64,000 bases of DNA from Actinopolymorpha rutila (GTDB taxonomy: Bacteria > Actinomycetota > Actinomycetes > Propionibacteriales > Actinopolymorphaceae). Both the position numbers and the translations under genes were made by a program. Where the stretch lies: NCBI RefSeq assembly GCF_013407855.1, contig NZ_JACBZH010000001.1:1984001-2048000 (forward strand). The letters run 5' to 3'. The notes under the pieces are model-generated. The model saw nothing but the letters and a program-made list of their open reading frames with translations, searched no databases and had not been told where the DNA came from. Shown here piece by piece: positions 4,374-37,764 of this stretch. How positions within the stretch are numbered: position 1 is the stretch's first letter; every line of letters starts with the position of its first letter.

Positions 4374-5735
4374 GTGGCGGTCCCCACGTTCATCGACCGG
4401 GTGACGCTCCACGTGGCCGGCGGTGACGGCGGTCACGGCTGCACCTCGGTTCACCGGGAGAAGTTCAAGCCCCTCGGCGGCCCGGACGGCGGCAACGGCG
4501 GCCGTGGCGGCAGCGTCGTCCTCGAGGTCGCGCCCAACCTCACCACCCTGGCCGACTACTACCACGCACCCCACCGCCGAGCCGCCAACGGCCGTCCCGG
4601 TCAGGGCAGCAACCGCGCCGGCGCCGACGGTGACGACCTCGTGCTGCGGGTGCCAGACGGCACGGTCGTCAGGACGACCGACGGTGAGGTGCTGATCGAC
4701 CTGGTGGGCGCCGGCACCTCCTACGTCGTCGCCGCCGGCGGAAACGGCGGCCTGGGCAACGCCGCGCTGGCCTCGGCCCGCCGCCGCGCTCCGGGATTCG
4801 CACTGCTCGGTGAGCCCGGCGACCGTCGCAGCATCGTCCTGGAACTGAAGCTCGTCGCCGACGTGGGACTGGTCGGGTTCCCCAGTGCCGGCAAGTCCAG
4901 CCTGATCGCCGCCATGTCCCGAGCCCGGCCGAAGATCGCCGACTACCCGTTCACCACGTTGGTCCCCAACCTCGGCGTCGTGACCGCGGGCGACACGACG
5001 TTCACCGTCGCCGACGTCCCCGGCCTGATCGAGGGCGCGAGCGAGGGGAGGGGCCTGGGCCACGAGTTCCTCCGCCACGTCGAACGCTGCAGCGCGCTGT
5101 GCCACGTGATCGACTGCGCGACACTGGAGCCGGGCCGCGACCCGCTATCCGACCTGGACGTCATCGAGGGGGAGCTCGCCGCCCACGGCGGGCTGGAGGA
5201 TCGTCCGCGCATCGTCGTACTCAACAAGGTCGACGTGCCCGACGCCCAGGACCTGGCCGAGCTGGTGAAGCCCGAGCTCGCCGCTCGTGGCCTGCACGTC
5301 TTCGAGGTGTCCGCCGCGACACACGCCGGCCTCGTCGAGCTGTCGTACGCCATGGCACGCCTGGTCCAGGGCCGACGTGCTGCGGCCCCGCCGGCCGAGC
5401 CCACCCGGATCGTGATCCGTCCCCGGGCCGTCGACGAGTCCGACTTCACCGTCACCCGCGAGGGCGACGTGTGGCGAGTGCGTGGCCGCCGTCCCGAGCG
5501 GTGGGTACGCCAGACCGACTTCAGCAACGACGAGGCCGTCGGCTACCTCGCCGACCGGCTCAACCGCCTCGGCGTCGAGGACAAGCTCCGCAAGCTGGGC
5601 GCCCAGCGCGGCGACGCGGTGGCGATCGGTGCGGAGGACAACGCCGTGGTGTTCGACTTCGATCCCAGCGTGGAGTCCGGTGCGGAGTTGCTGCAGGGTC
5701 CGCGCGGTAGCGATCCCCGCCTGGACGGCCGGTGA
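4374..5735 (+). CDS. obg: GTPase Obg
   Basis: Essential P-loop GTPase involved in 50S subunit assembly and stress control, 453 residues. The GTG start follows a strong GGGAGGAGG site. The Gly-rich Obg fold covers about residues 1-158, with GGDGGHG and GGNGGRGG. The G domain carries GFPSAGKSS (about 168-176), DVPG and NKVD (near 284). A C-terminal OCT domain covers about 330-440. It is 7 bases from proB, the usual actinobacterial arrangement. Confidence 0.97.
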
Positions 5736-5742
5736 CCGGCCG

Positions 5743-6894
5743 GTGACCAAAGGGCTGCGCACCGACGTGACGGCCGCCGAACGGGTGGTCGTCAAGGTCG
5801 GGTCGTCCTCGCTCACCACCTCGCGCGGCGGCATCGCCCAGGACCGCATCGACGCGCTCGTCGACGCACTTGCCACCCGCCGTGCCGCCGGCACCGAGAT
5901 CGTGCTGGTCTCCTCCGGCGCGATCGCCACCGGCTTCGCGCCGCTCGGGTTGCGCACCCGCCCGCGTGACCTGGCCACGCAGCAGGCGGCGGCGAGCGTT
6001 GGCCAGGGGCTCCTCGTGGCCCGCTACACCGAGGCGTTCGGCCGGCACGGCTTCCGGGTCGCGCAGGTGCTGCTCACCCTCGACGACGTGACCCGGCGGT
6101 CCCACTACCGCAACGCCTACCGCACGATGGCGCGACTGCTGGAGCTCGGCGTGGTGCCGATCGTGAACGAGAACGACTCGGTGGCCACCGAGGAGATCCG
6201 GTTCGGCGACAACGACCGGCTGGCCGCACTGGTCGCCCACCTGGTGCACGCCGACCTGCTCGTCCTGCTGTCCGACGTCGACGGCCTCTACGACGGTGAC
6301 CCGCGCCGGCCCGGCACCGCGCGGGTGGAAGAAGTACGCGGCGACGCCGACCTCGAGCACGTGTCGCTCGGGCGTTCCGGCCGGTCCGGCGTCGGCACCG
6401 GCGGCATGGCGACCAAGGTGGAGGCCGCCCGGATCGCGACCGCGGCCGGCGTACCGGTGGTGCTCTCCGACGCCGCTGACGCGGGCCGCGCCCTGGCCGG
6501 TGAACGCGTCGGCACCCACTTCCACCGGACCGGCCGGCGTCGCCCCACCCGGTTGCTGTGGCTCGCGCACGCCACCACGCCGCGCGGCCGGCTCCGGCTC
6601 GACAACGGCGCGGTGCGCGCGGTCTGCGAGCGCCGCGCGTCCCTGCTCCCGGCTGGGATCGTGGCGGTGGACGGCAGTTTCGAAGTGGGGGATCCGGTCG
6701 ATCTGGTCGATCCAGAGGGTCGTACTGTCGCCCGCGGGCTGGTCAACTTCGACGCCCGCGAGCTTCCCGACCTGCTCGGCCGGTCCACTCGGGACCTCGC
6801 CCGTGAGCTCGGCCCCGCCTACGAACGCGAGGTCGTCCACCGCGACGACCTCGTGCTAATTCCCGAACGCGACCGTACGATCGCGCACACCTGA
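5743..6894 (+). CDS. proB: Glutamate 5-kinase
   Basis: First enzyme of proline synthesis, phosphorylating glutamate to gamma-glutamyl phosphate; 383 residues from this start. The amino-acid kinase fold shows VVVKVGSSSLT near residue 14 and VPIVNENDSV near 140. A C-terminal PUA domain follows from about 290. The GTG at 5743 lies 7 bases after the obg stop. A second in-frame GTG at 5767, preceded by AAAGGG, would give 375 residues and is equally possible. Confidence 0.95.
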   Translation: MTKGLRTDVTAAERVVVKVGSSSLTTSRGGIAQDRIDALVDALATRRAAGTEIVLVSSGAIATGFAPLGLRTRPRDLATQQAAASVGQGLLVARYTEAFGRHGFRVAQVLLTLDDVTRRSHYRNAYRTMARLLELGVVPIVNENDSVATEEIRFGDNDRLAALVAHLVHADLLVLLSDVDGLYDGDPRRPGTARVEEVRGDADLEHVSLGRSGRSGVGTGGMATKVEAARIATAAGVPVVLSDAADAGRALAGERVGTHFHRTGRRRPTRLLWLAHATTPRGRLRLDNGAVRAVCERRASLLPAGIVAVDGSFEVGDPVDLVDPEGRTVARGLVNFDARELPDLLGRSTRDLARELGPAYEREVVHRDDLVLIPERDRTIAHT

Positions 6895-32168: not shown

Positions 32169-32251
32169 GCCGGAGGCAGGCCGGGTGAGACGAGACCCGG
32201 CCCGGTGCGAAAGCGGTTGCGGCCCTCGGGCCGTAGCGATTGGGTGTGGGG

Positions 32252-33027
32252 ATGGGAAAGCGCGCGGCCGAGGAGCTGCCCGAGCACGTACGCCGCAACC
32301 GTGAGGTGTGGGACGCCGTCCTGAGCGAGGGGTTCGCCGCGCGGGCGCGCGAGCAGTGGGCCGCCGACCCGCACTGGGGCCTGTGGGCTACGCCGCAGAC
32401 GGACCTTCCCGTACTCCCCGCCGACCTGGCGGGCAAGGACGTCATCGAGCTCGGCTGTGGCACGGGGTACGTGTCGTCATGGGTCGCTCGGGCCGGCGGA
32501 AGGCCGGTCGGGATCGACAACTCGGCGAAGCAGCTGGCGGCGGCGCGGGCGATGCAGGAGGAGTTCGGGATCGGTTTTCCGTTGCTGCACGGCAATGCCG
32601 AGCAGGTGCCCTACCCGGACGCGAGCTTCGACGTGGCGATCAGCGAGTACGGAGCCGCCGTGTGGTGCGACCCGTACCGCTGGATCCCGGAGGCGGCACG
32701 ACTGCTTCGTCCCGGCGGCGAACTCGTCTTCATGCGCAACTCCGACCTGCTCATGCTGTGCCTTCCCGACGACGGCCCGGCCGGCACCCGCCTGCACCGG
32801 CCACAGTTCGGGCCGACCGGATCGACGACCCGGACGGCGCGGTGGAGTTCCACCTGTCGCACGGCCCGATGATCCGGCTGCTCCGCAAGTGCGGCCTGGA
32901 GGTCGAGGAGCTCGTCGAGGTCCAAGCGCCCGAGGACGCGTCCACCGCGTTCGACTACGTCGACCTGGCCTGGGCACGCCAGTGGCCGTGCGAAGAGGTG
33001 TGGAAGGCCCGTCGTACCGGCGTCTGA
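32252..33027 (+). pseudogene. SAM-dependent methyltransferase with one-base frameshift
   Basis: Frame 1 from the ATG at 32252 encodes motif I (VIELGCGTGYVSSWVARAGG), VGIDNSAKQLAAAR and PEAARLLRPGGELVFM up to HRPQFG. The continuation lies in the next frame as DRIDDPDGAVEFHLSHG, RLLRKCGLEVEELVEVQAP and WARQWPCEEVWKARR, stopping at 33027. Restoring one base near 32813 (GGGCC to GGGCCC) joins them into about 259 residues. Without it translation ends at 32872 with a wrong tail. Confidence 0.8.
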
Positions 33028-33051: not shown

Positions 33052-34194
33052 TTACAACGCCCAGAGGGCGAGACCCGTCCCGATGCCGACGACCACGACG
33101 GCGCCGAGCACGGCGAGCAGGACGCGTGCCGGGAACGAGCGCCGCAGCATGATGAGCGACGGCAGGCTGAGCGCCGGAAGCGTGACGAGCAGCGCCCCCA
33201 CCGGTCCCGCGCCCATGCCGGCGTGGAGGAGTCCCTGGATGATCGGGATCTCACCGGCCGTGGGAATGACGAACAGCGCCCCGGCGACGGCGAGTGCGAC
33301 CAGCGCGAGAACACCCCACTCGGCCAGATGCCCGCTGATCGGGAACATCCACGCGCGGACGGCACCGAGTCCCAGAACGATGACGAGGTACTCCGGCACG
33401 AGCGTGAGCGACAGCCTGCCGAACGTCCTTGCGAACCGGCCCAGCGCCGCACGTGGGGTCACGCTGGTGTCGGTCTCCTCGTCCGCCGACCAGGTGGGTT
33501 CCGCGGTCGGCTGCGGGCTCAACCGCGCGACCAGAGGCGGGACGAGGAAGACGAGGAGGATGCCCGCCACGATCCGCACGCCCACCCACTGCAGGGGCAG
33601 CACGACCGCCATGAAGACGAGCACCGCCGGATTGAGCGTGGGGTTGCCGATCCAGTACGCCAGCGCCGAACTGGTCGGCACGCCACGACGGCGAAGCGAT
33701 GCCGTCACCGGGGCGGTGCAGCAGGTGCACATCATCGAGGGCATCGAGAGCAGTCCGCCGGCCAGCGACCCGCCGAGGCGTCGCGGCCCGCTGGTGAGCA
33801 CCCGGACCAGCCACTGGCGCGGGAGGAACGCCTCCACCGCGGAGGCGATGACCAGCGCGGCGAGCAGCGCCATCCACACCGACTTGAAGTACGCCAGACC
33901 GAACGACCAGGCCGCGTGCCATGAAGGCGCCGGTGGCGTACCGGAGCCGTCGGTGACCGAGGAGGTGGCGTCCAGTTTGCCGGTGTGGAGCACCCCCGCC
34001 GTCTTGTGGACGTACGGCAACCACTTGGCCCACGTCAGTGCGATCACCAGGACGACCACGAAGACGGCCAGCCCGACCAGCATCCCCTTCCCCGAGGGAC
34101 CCGACGGCGCGGACGCCTCGGACCGTCCGGTGTCGGGCGGGGATGGCGGCGCCGGCCGAACGTCCCTTCCCGCGGCCCTGGTGTGTTCGCTCAT
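33052..34194 (-). CDS. UPF0718/YraQ-type permease
   Basis: 380 residues, about eight to ten membrane helices. The family motif SMPSMMCTCCTAPVTASLRRRG carries Cys pairs in the first repeat; GNPTLNPAVLVFMAVVLPLQW follows, and IPTAGEIPIIQGLLHAG marks the second repeat. Relatives include ArsP, which exports organoarsenicals. A 27-base gap to selD and the same strand imply one operon, so a selenium-related substrate is a reasonable but untested idea. N-terminal 35 residues are soluble and Pro/Ser-rich. Confidence 0.85.
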   Translation of the reverse strand: MSEHTRAAGRDVRPAPPSPPDTGRSEASAPSGPSGKGMLVGLAVFVVVLVIALTWAKWLPYVHKTAGVLHTGKLDATSSVTDGSGTPPAPSWHAAWSFGLAYFKSVWMALLAALVIASAVEAFLPRQWLVRVLTSGPRRLGGSLAGGLLSMPSMMCTCCTAPVTASLRRRGVPTSSALAYWIGNPTLNPAVLVFMAVVLPLQWVGVRIVAGILLVFLVPPLVARLSPQPTAEPTWSADEETDTSVTPRAALGRFARTFGRLSLTLVPEYLVIVLGLGAVRAWMFPISGHLAEWGVLALVALAVAGALFVIPTAGEIPIIQGLLHAGMGAGPVGALLVTLPALSLPSLIMLRRSFPARVLLAVLGAVVVVGIGTGLALWAL

Positions 34195-34221: not shown

Positions 34222-35259
34222 TCACGGTCGTAGGCGCAGCCGCCCTGTTCCAGGTGTGGCGCGCCCCACGACGGCGCAGGTGTGCCCGGTGGACCCGAGC
34301 CGGTCGAGCACCTCGGGTACGGCCTCGGGTGCCACGCCGAAGAGGAGGCCACCGGAGGTCTGCGCGTCGGCGAGCAGGCTCACGGTCAGTTCGTCGGTGC
34401 TTCCAGGGTCCAGCCGGTCGCGGATCCACTCCAGGTTGCGCGCGGAACCCCCGGGCAGGTGACCTTCGGCGGCCAGGTCGCGCGCGCCGGGAAGCACCGG
34501 AACGGCGGCGGCGTCGAGGTCGACGTCGACCTCGGACGCCCGCGCCATCTGACCGAGGTGGCCGAGCAGGCCGAAGCCGGTCACGTCCGTACAACCGTTG
34601 GCTCCGGCGTCGAGCGCCACGGTCGAGGCGTCGGCGTTCGTACGGCTCATCGACGCCACCATCGCGGCCACCGCTTCGTCGGACGCCTCACCGGCCTTGG
34701 CCGCCGTCGAGATGACCCCGGTGCCGATGGGTTTGGTGAGGACGAGTACGTCGTTCGCGCGCAGGCCGGAGTTGCGCAGCACGCGGTCGGGATGCACCTC
34801 ACCGACCACGCTCAGTCCGAACTTCGGCTGGGGGTCGTCCACCGTGTGACCGCCCGCGATCACGAAGCCGCACTCGTCGGCGACCTCGGCCGCGCCGGCG
34901 AGCACCTCGTCGAGCAGGTCGTGGGAGAGTTCGCCCGCGTTCCAGCAGACCAGGTTGAGCGCGAACAGCGGGCGGCCGCCCATCGCGTACACGTCGGACA
35001 CCGAGTTGACCGCCGCGATCCGGCCCCAGACGCGGGCGTCGTCGACGATCGGGGTGATGAAGTCCGCGGTCGACACGAGGGCGCGGTTGTCGTCGAGTCG
35101 CCACACCGCGGCGTCGTCGCCTGTCTCGGTCCCCACGATCAGGTCGGGGTGACCGGCGTGTAGGTGGCGCAGGACCTGCGCCAGCTCGCCAGGAGCGAGT
35201 TTGCCAGCTCAACCAGCGCGGTGGCTGTAGCTGGTGAGCCGCCTCGGCTGCTGGTTCAT
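34222..35259 (-). CDS. selD: Selenophosphate synthetase SelD, predicted selenoprotein (Sec17)
   Basis: Makes selenophosphate from selenide and ATP. Read from the ATG at 35259 (GGGG 6 bases upstream), the protein starts MNQQPRRLTSYSHRAG, then UGA, then AGKLAPGELAQVL and continues without a break to 34222, 345 residues, the family length. Aligned by hand to E. coli SelD (RLTQYSHGAGCGCKI), the UGA falls exactly on catalytic Cys17 and Lys20 is kept; Cys19 is Gly. Later motifs: GTETGDDAAVWRL, DFITPIVDD, GGHTVDDPQPKFGLSV. Without UGA read-through only a fragment from the GTG at 35136 is possible, lacking the catalytic loop. Divergent from senA; in that context it could be called senC. Confidence 0.9.
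35185..35211 (-). other. Selenocysteine UGA codon and candidate bacterial SECIS hairpin
   Basis: The UGA is at 35209-35211 (complement). Nine bases further, the transcript can fold into a perfect 5-bp stem CUCGC/GCGAG (35199-35185) with loop UCCUG, placing the loop about 14-18 bases after UGA. The stem is short and the loop lacks an obvious GU, so SelB recognition is uncertain. Confidence 0.5.
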
Positions 35260-35334
35260 CGCCGTCCCCTTCGGTAGGTTCGCTCCCGCAGCCTAACCAC
35301 GACAGAGCCGTTCGGCCGAGACCTCGTGTCCCTC

Positions 35335-35386
35335 GTCGGCCGGAGTTGTCGGCCGGAGTTGTCGGACGGAGTTGTCGGACGGAGAG
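35335..35386 (+). repeat. Four 13-bp tandem repeats in the selD-senA promoter gap
   Basis: Four head-to-tail units GTCGG(C/A)CGGAGTT occupy 35335-35386 (the last ends GGAGAG), directly before the senA ribosome site. Each holds a GGAG core resembling a Shine-Dalgarno sequence. They lie in the 143-base gap between divergent selD and senA. Confidence 0.9.
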
Positions 35387-35402
35387 ACCGGAGGAGCGCC
35401 TC

Positions 35403-36773
35403 GTGGGCGGTACGAAGGATGCGCGGTCGTCGACGGCGGAGGAGCTGGCCGGCTGGGTCAGGGACGCGAGCAGCCGGCTGGCCGAGCTGGTCGCCGACCT
35501 GTCCGACGAGCAGCTGATCGGACCGAAGATCCCGACGATCAACCCGCTGATCTGGGAGATCGGGCACATCACGTGGTTCATGGAGACCTTCGTGTTGCGG
35601 CGTGCCCTGGCAGAGCCGCCGATCTTCGACCACGCTGACGCGATCTGGGACTCCGGCACCATTCCGCACGACACCCGCTGGTCGCTGGTCCTTCCGTCGC
35701 GGAAGGAGACGCTCGCCTACATCGACGAGGTTGCCGAGCGGGTGGCGGACCGGCTGGGGCGGCCGGAGTCGACCGCGCAGCTGCGGTACATCACCAGGTA
35801 CGCCGTACACCACCACGACATGCACACCGAGGCACTCACGTACACGCGGCAGACGCTCGGCTACCCGGCACCCACGCTGCCCGGGGCGGCGGTGCCGGGC
35901 GAGGTGCCCGACGCGCCGGGGGAGGACGGCCCACTGGCCGGCGACGCGCCGATCCCCGGTGGCCGGTTCCTCCTCGGCGCCGACCGGGACGAGGAGTTCG
36001 TCCACGACAACGAGAAGTGGGTCCATCCGGTCGACCTGGCGCCGTTCGCGCTGGCCAGGGCGGCGGTGCCCCAGGCCGAGTACGCCGCCTTCGTCGACGA
36101 CGGCGGCTACCGGCGTCGCGAGGTGTGGGGTGACGACGGCTGGGCCTGGCGTCGTGGCGCCGACGCGGACACTCCGGTCTACTGGCGGCACGGCGCGAAC
36201 GGCTGGGAGCGCCGCGACTTCGACCGCTGGGTCCCCCTGGAGCCGCACCGGCCGGTGAGCCACGTCTCCTGGTACGAGGCCGAGGCGTACTGCCGGTGGG
36301 CCGGTCGGCGGCTGCCCACCGAGGCGGAGTGGGAGGCCGCGGCGATCGGGCAGCCGGACGGGTCGGGCGGACTCTCTCCGCGCAAGCGGCGGCTTCCGTG
36401 GGGAGCCGGCGCGCCGGAGGCCGAGCACGCCAACCTGGACTGGCGCCACCTGGGCACCGCCGACGTCGGTGCCTACCCCGCGGGCGACAGCGCGTTCGGC
36501 TGCCGGCAGATGGTCGGCAACGTGTGGGAGTGGACGGCCTCCACGTTCGAGCCGTACCCGAACTTCGAGCAGGACCCCTACCGCGACAACTCCTGGCCGT
36601 GGTTCGGCAGCCGTAAGGTGCTGCGCGGCGGGGCCTGGGCCACCCGGTCGCGGTTCATCCGGGGGACGCTGCGCAACTACTTCACGCCCGACCGGCGCGA
36701 CGTGCTCGCGGGGTTCCGGACCGCGGCCGCGGGCTCGGCAGGCTCGGCGGGCTCTGCTGACTCCGCGAGCTGA
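35403..36773 (+). CDS. senA: Selenoneine synthase SenA (EgtB-like)
   Basis: 456 residues. An N-terminal DinB-like domain carries iron-binding His: IGHITWFMETFVL (His55) and HHHDMHTEALTY (His136-138, His141). A C-terminal FGE-sulfatase/C-type lectin domain follows (GGRFLLGADRDEEFVHDNEKW, GRRLPTEAEWEAAA, QMVGNVWEWTAS, KVLRGGAWATRSRFIRGTLRNY). SenA joins a selenosugar to trimethylhistidine in selenoneine synthesis (family knowledge). The closely related EgtB makes ergothioneine; the adjacent SenB and SelD favour SenA. GTG at 35403 with GGAGGAG upstream. Confidence 0.88.
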   Translation: MGGTKDARSSTAEELAGWVRDASSRLAELVADLSDEQLIGPKIPTINPLIWEIGHITWFMETFVLRRALAEPPIFDHADAIWDSGTIPHDTRWSLVLPSRKETLAYIDEVAERVADRLGRPESTAQLRYITRYAVHHHDMHTEALTYTRQTLGYPAPTLPGAAVPGEVPDAPGEDGPLAGDAPIPGGRFLLGADRDEEFVHDNEKWVHPVDLAPFALARAAVPQAEYAAFVDDGGYRRREVWGDDGWAWRRGADADTPVYWRHGANGWERRDFDRWVPLEPHRPVSHVSWYEAEAYCRWAGRRLPTEAEWEAAAIGQPDGSGGLSPRKRRLPWGAGAPEAEHANLDWRHLGTADVGAYPAGDSAFGCRQMVGNVWEWTASTFEPYPNFEQDPYRDNSWPWFGSRKVLRGGAWATRSRFIRGTLRNYFTPDRRDVLAGFRTAAAGSAGSAGSADSAS

Positions 36774-36789: not shown

Positions 36790-37764
36790 ATGCGGATCTG
36801 CCTGGTCACCCCGGCTCCGCCATGCAGCTACCACGGCAACCGCGTCACCGCGCTGCGCTGGGCGGACCTCCTGCGCGGGCTCGGCCACTCCGTCCAGGTC
36901 ACCCAGACCTACGACGGCACCCCGATCGACCTGCTGATCGCGCTGCACGCACGCAAGAGCGCCGATGCCGTACGACAGGTCCGGGCGCAGCACCCGGCCA
37001 CTCCGGTCGTGCTCGCGCTCACCGGCACCGACCTGTATCCCGACCTGGAAAGCACCGGCGTCGACCCGGGAGTCCTCGCGGCGGCCGACCGGTTGGTCGT
37101 CCTCCAGTCGCTCGGGGTGGAGCAGATCCCCGAGCACCTGCGTGGGCGGGCCCGGGTCATCGAGCAGTCGGCGCAACCGCCTCCGCCCGAGAACCTTCCC
37201 TCGGACGAGAGCCACTTCACCGTCGCCGTTCTCGCGCACGTACGGCAGGTCAAGGATCCGCTCCTCGTCGCCGAGGCCGTACGCCTGCTTCCCGCCGGCT
37301 CCCGGATCCAGGCCCGGCACGCCGGTGCGGTCATCGAGCCCGAACTCGGCACCCGGGCCGAGGAGGAGACGCGGACGAACCCGCGTTACACCTGGCTGGG
37401 CGAACTCCCGCCTCCGGACGCCCAGCGGTTGCTCGCCCGCAGCCGCCTGCTGGTCTGTCCCTCGCGGCACGAGGGCGGGGCGAACGTGGTCTCGGAGGCG
37501 CTGGCTGCCGGTGTGCCGGTCGTCGCCTCGAGAATCCCTGGTACGCAAGGGATTCTCGGCGCTGACTATCCGGGCTACTTCCCGGTCGGCGACGCCGAGG
37601 CCCTTGCCGAGCTGTTGAGCCGGGTCGAACGCAACCGTGAAGGCTTCTACGACGACCTCGTACGGCACTGCGCGCGGCTGGCCGATCTCGCGTCACCGGC
37701 GCGGGAGCGAGAAGCGTGGGCCGCACTTCTGGCCGAGCTCGGCGGAGCGGCCACGCGCGGGTAG
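36790..37764 (+). CDS. senB: Selenosugar synthase SenB (TIGR04348-type glycosyltransferase)
   Basis: 324 residues, GT-B fold. MRICLVTPAPPCSYHGNRVT then ALRWADLLRGLGHSV is the family N-terminus; DLLIALHARKSA, VVLALTGTDLYPDLES, RLVVLQSLG, FTVAVLAHVRQVKDPLL and CPSRHEGGANVVSEALAAG complete it. SenB uses selenophosphate and a UDP-sugar to make a selenosugar (family knowledge). It starts 16 bases after senA and is surely co-transcribed. The senA-senB-selD set is the defining selenoneine cluster. Confidence 0.88.
   Translation: MRICLVTPAPPCSYHGNRVTALRWADLLRGLGHSVQVTQTYDGTPIDLLIALHARKSADAVRQVRAQHPATPVVLALTGTDLYPDLESTGVDPGVLAAADRLVVLQSLGVEQIPEHLRGRARVIEQSAQPPPPENLPSDESHFTVAVLAHVRQVKDPLLVAEAVRLLPAGSRIQARHAGAVIEPELGTRAEEETRTNPRYTWLGELPPPDAQRLLARSRLLVCPSRHEGGANVVSEALAAGVPVVASRIPGTQGILGADYPGYFPVGDAEALAELLSRVERNREGFYDDLVRHCARLADLASPAREREAWAALLAELGGAATRG

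Follow-up and report, generated by a model that had tools for sequence, protein, structure and literature searches.

A sen-linked selenophosphate synthetase gene of Actinopolymorpha rutila with an in-frame UGA, probably read as selenocysteine, at its catalytic codon

Selenophosphate synthetases (SelD) that contain selenocysteine (Sec) have long been puzzling: the synthesis of this amino acid requires the very enzyme into which it is built. The title of Guimaraes et al. (1996), as given in the reference list of PMC8659212, asks whether this self-need acts as a feedback. Sec-SelD as such is long known and ordinary: a 2006 survey counted 38 of them (PMC1794560, excerpt), and a 2015 survey found Sec encoded in 19% of the detected prokaryotic SelD genes, always at the same position (PMC4561486, excerpt). 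A stretch of 64,000 nucleotides from Actinopolymorpha rutila (the window) contains a selD gene with a UGA at its catalytic codon, next to genes resembling those of selenoneine synthesis (sen). We asked whether this gene encodes a working Sec enzyme, and which pathways it would supply. The interest of the locus rests on the sen linkage and on an apparent handover from a cysteine-containing SelD (Cys-SelD) to a Sec-SelD.

Positions 34222 to 35259, minus strand: selD (senC), 345 aa, predicted selenophosphate synthetase with Sec as residue 17 (TIGR00476, 375 bits, cut-off 125)
Positions 35209 to 35211, minus strand: UGA codon 17, probably read as Sec, aligned with catalytic Cys17
Positions 35266 to 35272, minus strand: probable ribosome binding site GAAGGGG, read directly from the sequence

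The selD frame begins with the ATG at 35259, passes a single in-frame TGA at codon 17 (35211-35209) and ends with the TGA stop at 34222-34224; the GAAGGGG run is located 7-13 bases 5' of the ATG. Around codon 17, the peptide is MNQQPRRLTSYSHRAG-U-AGKLAPGE, and codon 17 aligns with the Cys of the solved SelD chains 3u0o and 2yye. The original prediction had placed an open frame between 35259 and 34222, with an in-frame UGA at the position of the catalytic Cys17, a conserved Lys20 and Gly instead of Cys at residue 19. Re-reading of the sequence and the alignment with the two solved chains bear out all of these features, and Gly19 proved to be common to a clade (discussed below). It had also stated that gene callers begin at 35136 and lose the active site. 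Because a mechanical ORF call indeed starts at the GTG at 35136, without the catalytic loop, truncation by gene callers is a fair expectation, which suggests that senC will come out too short when sen clusters of this kind are annotated automatically.

The TGA is shared by relatives. Among the 80 relatives kept, which are the best 80 of at least 295 confirmed matches, codon 17 is TGA in 69, TGC in 9 and TGT in 2, and the closest named relatives in this set are Pseudonocardiales. Two same-genus orthologues (94% and 92% identity) both have TGA at this codon, so that the proposed inspection of close relatives returned TGA and not Cys. Chance or sequencing error is unlikely because of this distribution in relatives and congeners, and a lone nonsense mutation was ruled out on the same ground. 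The in-frame TGA at the catalytic codon of selD is thus confirmed as real.

The genome of the window (G000) was searched as one contig of 6.95 Mb. It holds one SelA, a SelB (262 bits, cut-off 242) and a tRNA-Sec (75 bits), which ARAGORN reads as tRNA-SeC with the anticodon tca. All three genes that the original prediction had named for a check are therefore present, and absence of the Sec machinery is ruled out. A second match to the tRNA-Sec model at C1:288307 (52 bits) was rejected as a tRNA-Ser. The alpha subunit of formate dehydrogenase (FdhA) is encoded in the same genome region as SelB and has its own in-frame TGA in the context NQARI-U-HSATVPGLG. The fold 3' of the FdhA UGA is no better than those of shuffled sequences (z 0.14); a GGUCU loop is visible. 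The search for the selenouridine synthase SelU/YbbB in this genome gave no match above the cut-off of 220 bits and only a fragment of 24 bits. One SelD copy was found in the genome.

Positions 35184 to 35200, minus strand: first hairpin, 3' of the UGA and 5' of the SECIS-like hairpin, pairing within synonymous-shuffle expectation
Positions 35166 to 35182, minus strand: bSECIS-like hairpin GGCGCAG-GUC-CUGCGCC, apical loop 33 nt 3' of the UGA (rules of PMC13188914, covariation)

To the published bacterial SECIS limits (loop of 3-9 nt, stem of 4-16 bp, G in the first two loop positions, spacing of 16-37 nt and MFE of -7.5 or lower; PMC13188914, excerpt), the second hairpin conforms with its GUC loop, stem of 7-8 bp, spacing of 33 nt and -13.0 kcal/mol (z -2.78). 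The folding energy of the 52-nt stretch as a whole is not extreme (z -1.34). The 63-nt stretch from codon 17 onwards was compared across 98 genes, comprising 26 Cys genes and 72 TGA genes (the window, L122, L123 and 69 relatives, with the duplicate loci L093, L094, L099 and L104 dropped). At least six of the seven pairs of the second hairpin are formed in 71 of the 72 TGA genes versus none of the 26 Cys genes, and its loop starts with GU in all 72. It is fully paired in 48 of the 72 (67%). When synonymous codons were shuffled 1000 times within this gene set, full pairing averaged 39% and never exceeded 49%; the pairing therefore goes beyond what the encoded amino acids would impose. The first hairpin was rejected as evidence for Sec reading because synonymous shuffles do equally well.

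Covariation was counted over the pairs of both hairpins in alignment A1 (72 TGA rows, 69 distinct), in which 93.6% of the cells are paired. There are 52 double-changed cells versus a shuffled mean of 19.6, a count reached in 0 of 500 shuffles, although the hairpin shuffle controls treat related sequences as independent. When the partners were slid by 1-3 columns as a control, about 50% of the cells were paired at most. In the 11 nearer of the 26 Cys genes, to which this count was applied, 58% of the cells are paired, a value reached in 98 of 500 shuffles, and no covariation excess was found. The Rfam search found no SECIS family here and no credible match for the hairpin. A model of the hairpin stretch (R1) matched only selD itself in the window genome, among 150 scored of 13,589 candidates, and it is therefore no independent check on FdhA. 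Taken with the Sec machinery and the TGA in relatives, the SECIS-like hairpin supports the earlier reading that selD is probably translated with Sec.

The Gly at residue 19 is a lineage trait, and we regard it as a minor variation, because Cys19 is absent throughout the clade, is lacking in a solved SelD and, in E. coli SelD, is not known to be essential. In the SelD tree, which has 117 rows (91 TGA and 26 Cys) and was built by a quick method with SH-aLRT support and without bootstrap, the window SelD belongs to a clade of nine members (SH-aLRT 99), none of which has Cys19. Cys19 is kept in 67 of the 91 TGA rows and in all 26 Cys rows, and changes only twice on the tree. Chain 2yye, which we take to be Aquifex aeolicus SelD, likewise has no Cys two residues past the catalytic position (CAAK), but it is a distant relative of the window SelD. 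At residue 14, six of the nine clade members (L013, L014, L015, L018, L019 and L028) have Cys, encoded by TGC, three residues before Sec17 and without Cys19, as if the neighbouring cysteine had moved sides; in the three from this genus, residue 14 is Arg, encoded by a different codon in each.

Positions 35346 to 36773, plus strand: senA, selenoneine synthase-like, start perhaps at GTG 35403, divergent from selD (NF041186, 495 bits, cut-off 420)
Positions 36790 to 37764, plus strand: senB, selenosugar synthase-like (TIGR04348, 368 bits, cut-off 300)
Positions 33052 to 34194, minus strand: ArsP_1-type permease, 27 nt 3' of selD
Positions 35335 to 35384, no strand: tandem repeat with a 13-bp unit (3.8 copies, 97% matches), located between selD and the probable start of senA

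Judged by the family models, senA, senB and selD appear to form a selenoneine-type cluster in which selD is the senC, a setting that the original prediction had not mentioned. The distance between the start codons of selD and senA is 86 nt or 143 nt, according to which senA start is chosen, and the tandem repeat sits in the upstream stretch common to both genes. On the EgtB model, the senA product scores 330 bits, below the cut-off of 360. The SenB of the window matches the solved SenB 8fbx (E 1.8e-54); it has the motif EGGANV and keeps the lysine before DP. This lysine is present in all 26 other SenB rows, of which 25 have EGGAN and one has EGGAH (L184, Hydrogenophaga). An EgtD is encoded elsewhere in the genome (TIGR03438, 369 bits, cut-off 291), so hercynine can be made. 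The permease gene is probably co-transcribed with selD, and L015 (partial match), L019, L122 and L123 likewise have an ArsP_1 permease adjacent to selD. Next to the permease, a class I methyltransferase (32240-33027, plus strand) is split over two overlapping frames and looks broken; the corresponding stretch of the congener G001 has a 229-base piece only, and that of the congener G002 has no match.

The association of sen genes with Sec-encoded SelD extends beyond the window. In 26 of the 117 rows of the SelD tree, senA or senB is located in the flanking stretch, and all 26 are TGA rows, versus none of the 26 Cys rows; this count is biased, as most rows were gathered by similarity to the window SelD. 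A less biased sample started from SenA, whose cut-off was passed by 18 of 396 genomes of the phylum, including the window genome. Of these 18, all but G282 yielded a SelD, and TGA is present in every one of the 19 copies whose N-terminus can be read. One further match, L177, lacks the N-terminus, and L178-L180 were too weak (21-45 bits) to be taken as SelD. Apart from the window genome, there are 17 SenA-positive genomes; a SelA was found in 14 of them, over the cut-off in 12, and the three without it are at most 82% complete. In genome G251, the SenA match (C1:2794374-2795661) is in two adjoining pieces and perhaps frameshifted.

A clade of family f21 (L160-L173 and L176) consists of Sec-SelDs, most of them sen-linked, with the motif KAG-U-(A/G)(S/A)K. 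As seen in folds, its SECIS-like hairpin is of the type GCTCCAGG-GGT-CCTGGAGC, has another sequence and is nearer to the UGA, and it looks like a separate solution in another lineage. For two plasmid sen loci, the gene table, itself incomplete, lists no selD in the 5 kb or so around senB. One of them, L183 on a plasmid of Methylorubrum populi BJ001, carries senA and senB close to insertion-sequence transposases, again with no annotated selD next to them. The near relatives L013 and L014 have no senA or senB in the stretch covered. A gene for the selenium-binding protein SBP56 is convergent with their Sec-selD (L013:5065-6558; L014:5051-6502, minus strand).

Five same-genus genomes besides G000 were compared (DISPLACEMENT of a Cys-SelD). 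G003 and G004 have a Cys-SelD only, adjoining tRNA-Sec and selA. G001 has both types, a Cys-SelD adjoining tRNA-Sec and selA and a sen-linked Sec-SelD. G002, like G000, has a Sec-SelD only, and both have kept tRNA-SeC and selA. No SelD was found in G005 (130 contigs, 95% complete). The Cys-selD of G001 occupies 5395-6450 of its stretch. The alignment of G001 with G000 runs up to G001 position 5394 and resumes from 6515, with 1120 bases between in G001 versus 8 in G000; G002 has 60 bases in place of 2038 of G001, and its edge on the tRNA-Sec side is within 2 bases of that of G000. The Cys-SelDs of the genus and the sen-linked Sec-SelDs fall in different clades of the SelD tree. The Cys gene occupies the same place in G003, which is the furthest removed of the five (82% identity in selA), and loss is therefore the simpler reading. 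The selA-selB tree supports only the joining of G001 with G004 (96/99), and G000 and G002 are not sisters in it; therefore, one or two losses of Cys-SelD are possible. From these comparisons, the Sec-SelD of the sen cluster appears to have displaced the Cys-SelD in this lineage.

We consider it highly probable, from genomic sequence, that the gene encodes a working Sec-containing selenophosphate synthetase, which would receive Sec through SelB and the hairpin, feed both the sen pathway and SelA, and have displaced a Cys-SelD. SelB would bring Sec-tRNA to UGA17 through the hairpin, and the selenol at residue 17 would take part in making selenophosphate from selenide and ATP. Part of the selenophosphate would pass to SenB and SenA for selenoneine, formed from the hercynine made by EgtD, and part to SelA for the Sec of FdhA and of SelD itself. 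Next to tRNA-Sec and selA, the lineage would once have carried a Cys-SelD; its work would have passed to the sen-linked Sec-SelD, and the Cys-SelD would have been deleted, so that the selenophosphate supply would now depend on its own product. Only tentatively do we propose the further step that, with the housekeeping Cys-SelD displaced by the sen-borne enzyme, all selenophosphate is self-dependent and the loop could be all-or-none, with G001 as an intermediate. If this is true, a cell line below the threshold of active SelD could restart neither pathway without outside Sec or leaky reading of the UGA.

The alternatives concern the reading of the UGA, the product of the cluster and the history of the Cys-selD. 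The plain ORF call at 35136 would fit a pseudogene, or a gene that ends at UGA17 with a shorter product made from the GTG. Such a product would be without the catalytic loop, and this alternative is very improbable for several reasons: the 16 codons 5' of the TGA are conserved in G001 (one silent and one changing difference from the window) and in G002 (two silent, none changing), the TGA is kept in most of the best 80 relatives, the hairpin covaries in TGA genes but not in Cys genes, and no second selD was found in this genome, which does contain selA, selB and tRNA-Sec. Scarcely more probable is that the UGA is read through mostly with Cys, Ser or Trp. Misreading of UGA is known in general, and the inserted residue is not readable from sequence, but the genome has a dedicated tRNA-SeC and a SelB, and the UGA is followed by a SECIS-like hairpin within the published rules (PMC13188914, excerpt).

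The cluster might make another selenium compound, such as one like ovoselenol, rather than selenoneine. The solved structure nearest to the window SenA is the selenoxide synthase OvsA (353 bits), ahead of EgtB (244 bits) and SenA (222 bits), and the product of the SenA-like enzyme is uncertain for this reason; a literature search on a SenA structure found no paper. We nevertheless regard another product as unlikely, because the protein exceeds the cut-off of the NCBIfam SenA equivalog, over the last 72 aligned residues it shares 41 with SenA and 35 with OvsA, a small margin in favour of SenA, and the EgtD for hercynine is in the genome. A similarly low probability is given to a history in which the Cys-selD was never in the line of G000 and G002 and was gained by G001, G003 and G004. 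The selA-selB tree, which leaves G000 and G002 unresolved while joining G001 and G004, would allow such a gain. It is opposed by the same position of the gene in the distant G003, by the grouping of the three Cys-SelDs of the genus with those of the same-family genomes G006 and G007 (SH-aLRT 94, quick tree), and by the gaps of G000 and G002 against G001, whose edges on the tRNA-Sec side differ by no more than 2 bases. Displacement of the Cys-SelD by the sen-linked Sec-SelD is thus preferred.

Close relatives then show three states: Cys-SelD only, both types, and Sec-SelD only with a second consumer of selenophosphate. Gene removal could therefore test both the feedback and what self-dependence costs. 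What merits a test is the sen linkage together with the apparent disappearance of the older Cys form, the Sec-SelD kind itself being established. No report of a Sec-encoded SenC was found among the titles, abstract openings and excerpts covered in the selenoneine and selenoprotein literature, which included excerpts of PMC10891094, PMC11929427, PMC10702425 and PMC13188914; the Nature 2022 sen paper is outside this scope and may hold one.

Like known Sec-SelD (SPS2) enzymes, the window SelD would have Sec at the catalytic position, a bSECIS 3' of the UGA, and SelA, SelB and tRNA-Sec to serve it. It differs in its linkage to senA and senB, in Gly19 for Cys, in Arg14, and in a SECIS-like loop that is far downstream (33 nt) behind a first hairpin. 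In the sen pathway, SenC provides selenophosphate, SenB the selenosugar and SenA selenoneine (PMC9814287). The cluster of Variovorax paradoxus likewise has SenA, SenB and SelD as SenC side by side (PMC9814287; PMC10891094, excerpts); for the window, the SenC is predicted to be Sec-encoded, a statement on this SenC alone. The SenB motif is EGGANV in the window versus the EGGAHV named in PMC10891094 (excerpt). According to an excerpt of PMC1273633, Photobacterium profundum has a Sec-SelD next to selAB and a Cys-SelD next to ybbB, with different histories. G001 similarly holds the two SelD types in one genome, but its Sec form is located at the sen cluster and its Cys form beside tRNA-Sec and selA, whereas in the window genome the Sec form is the only one found.
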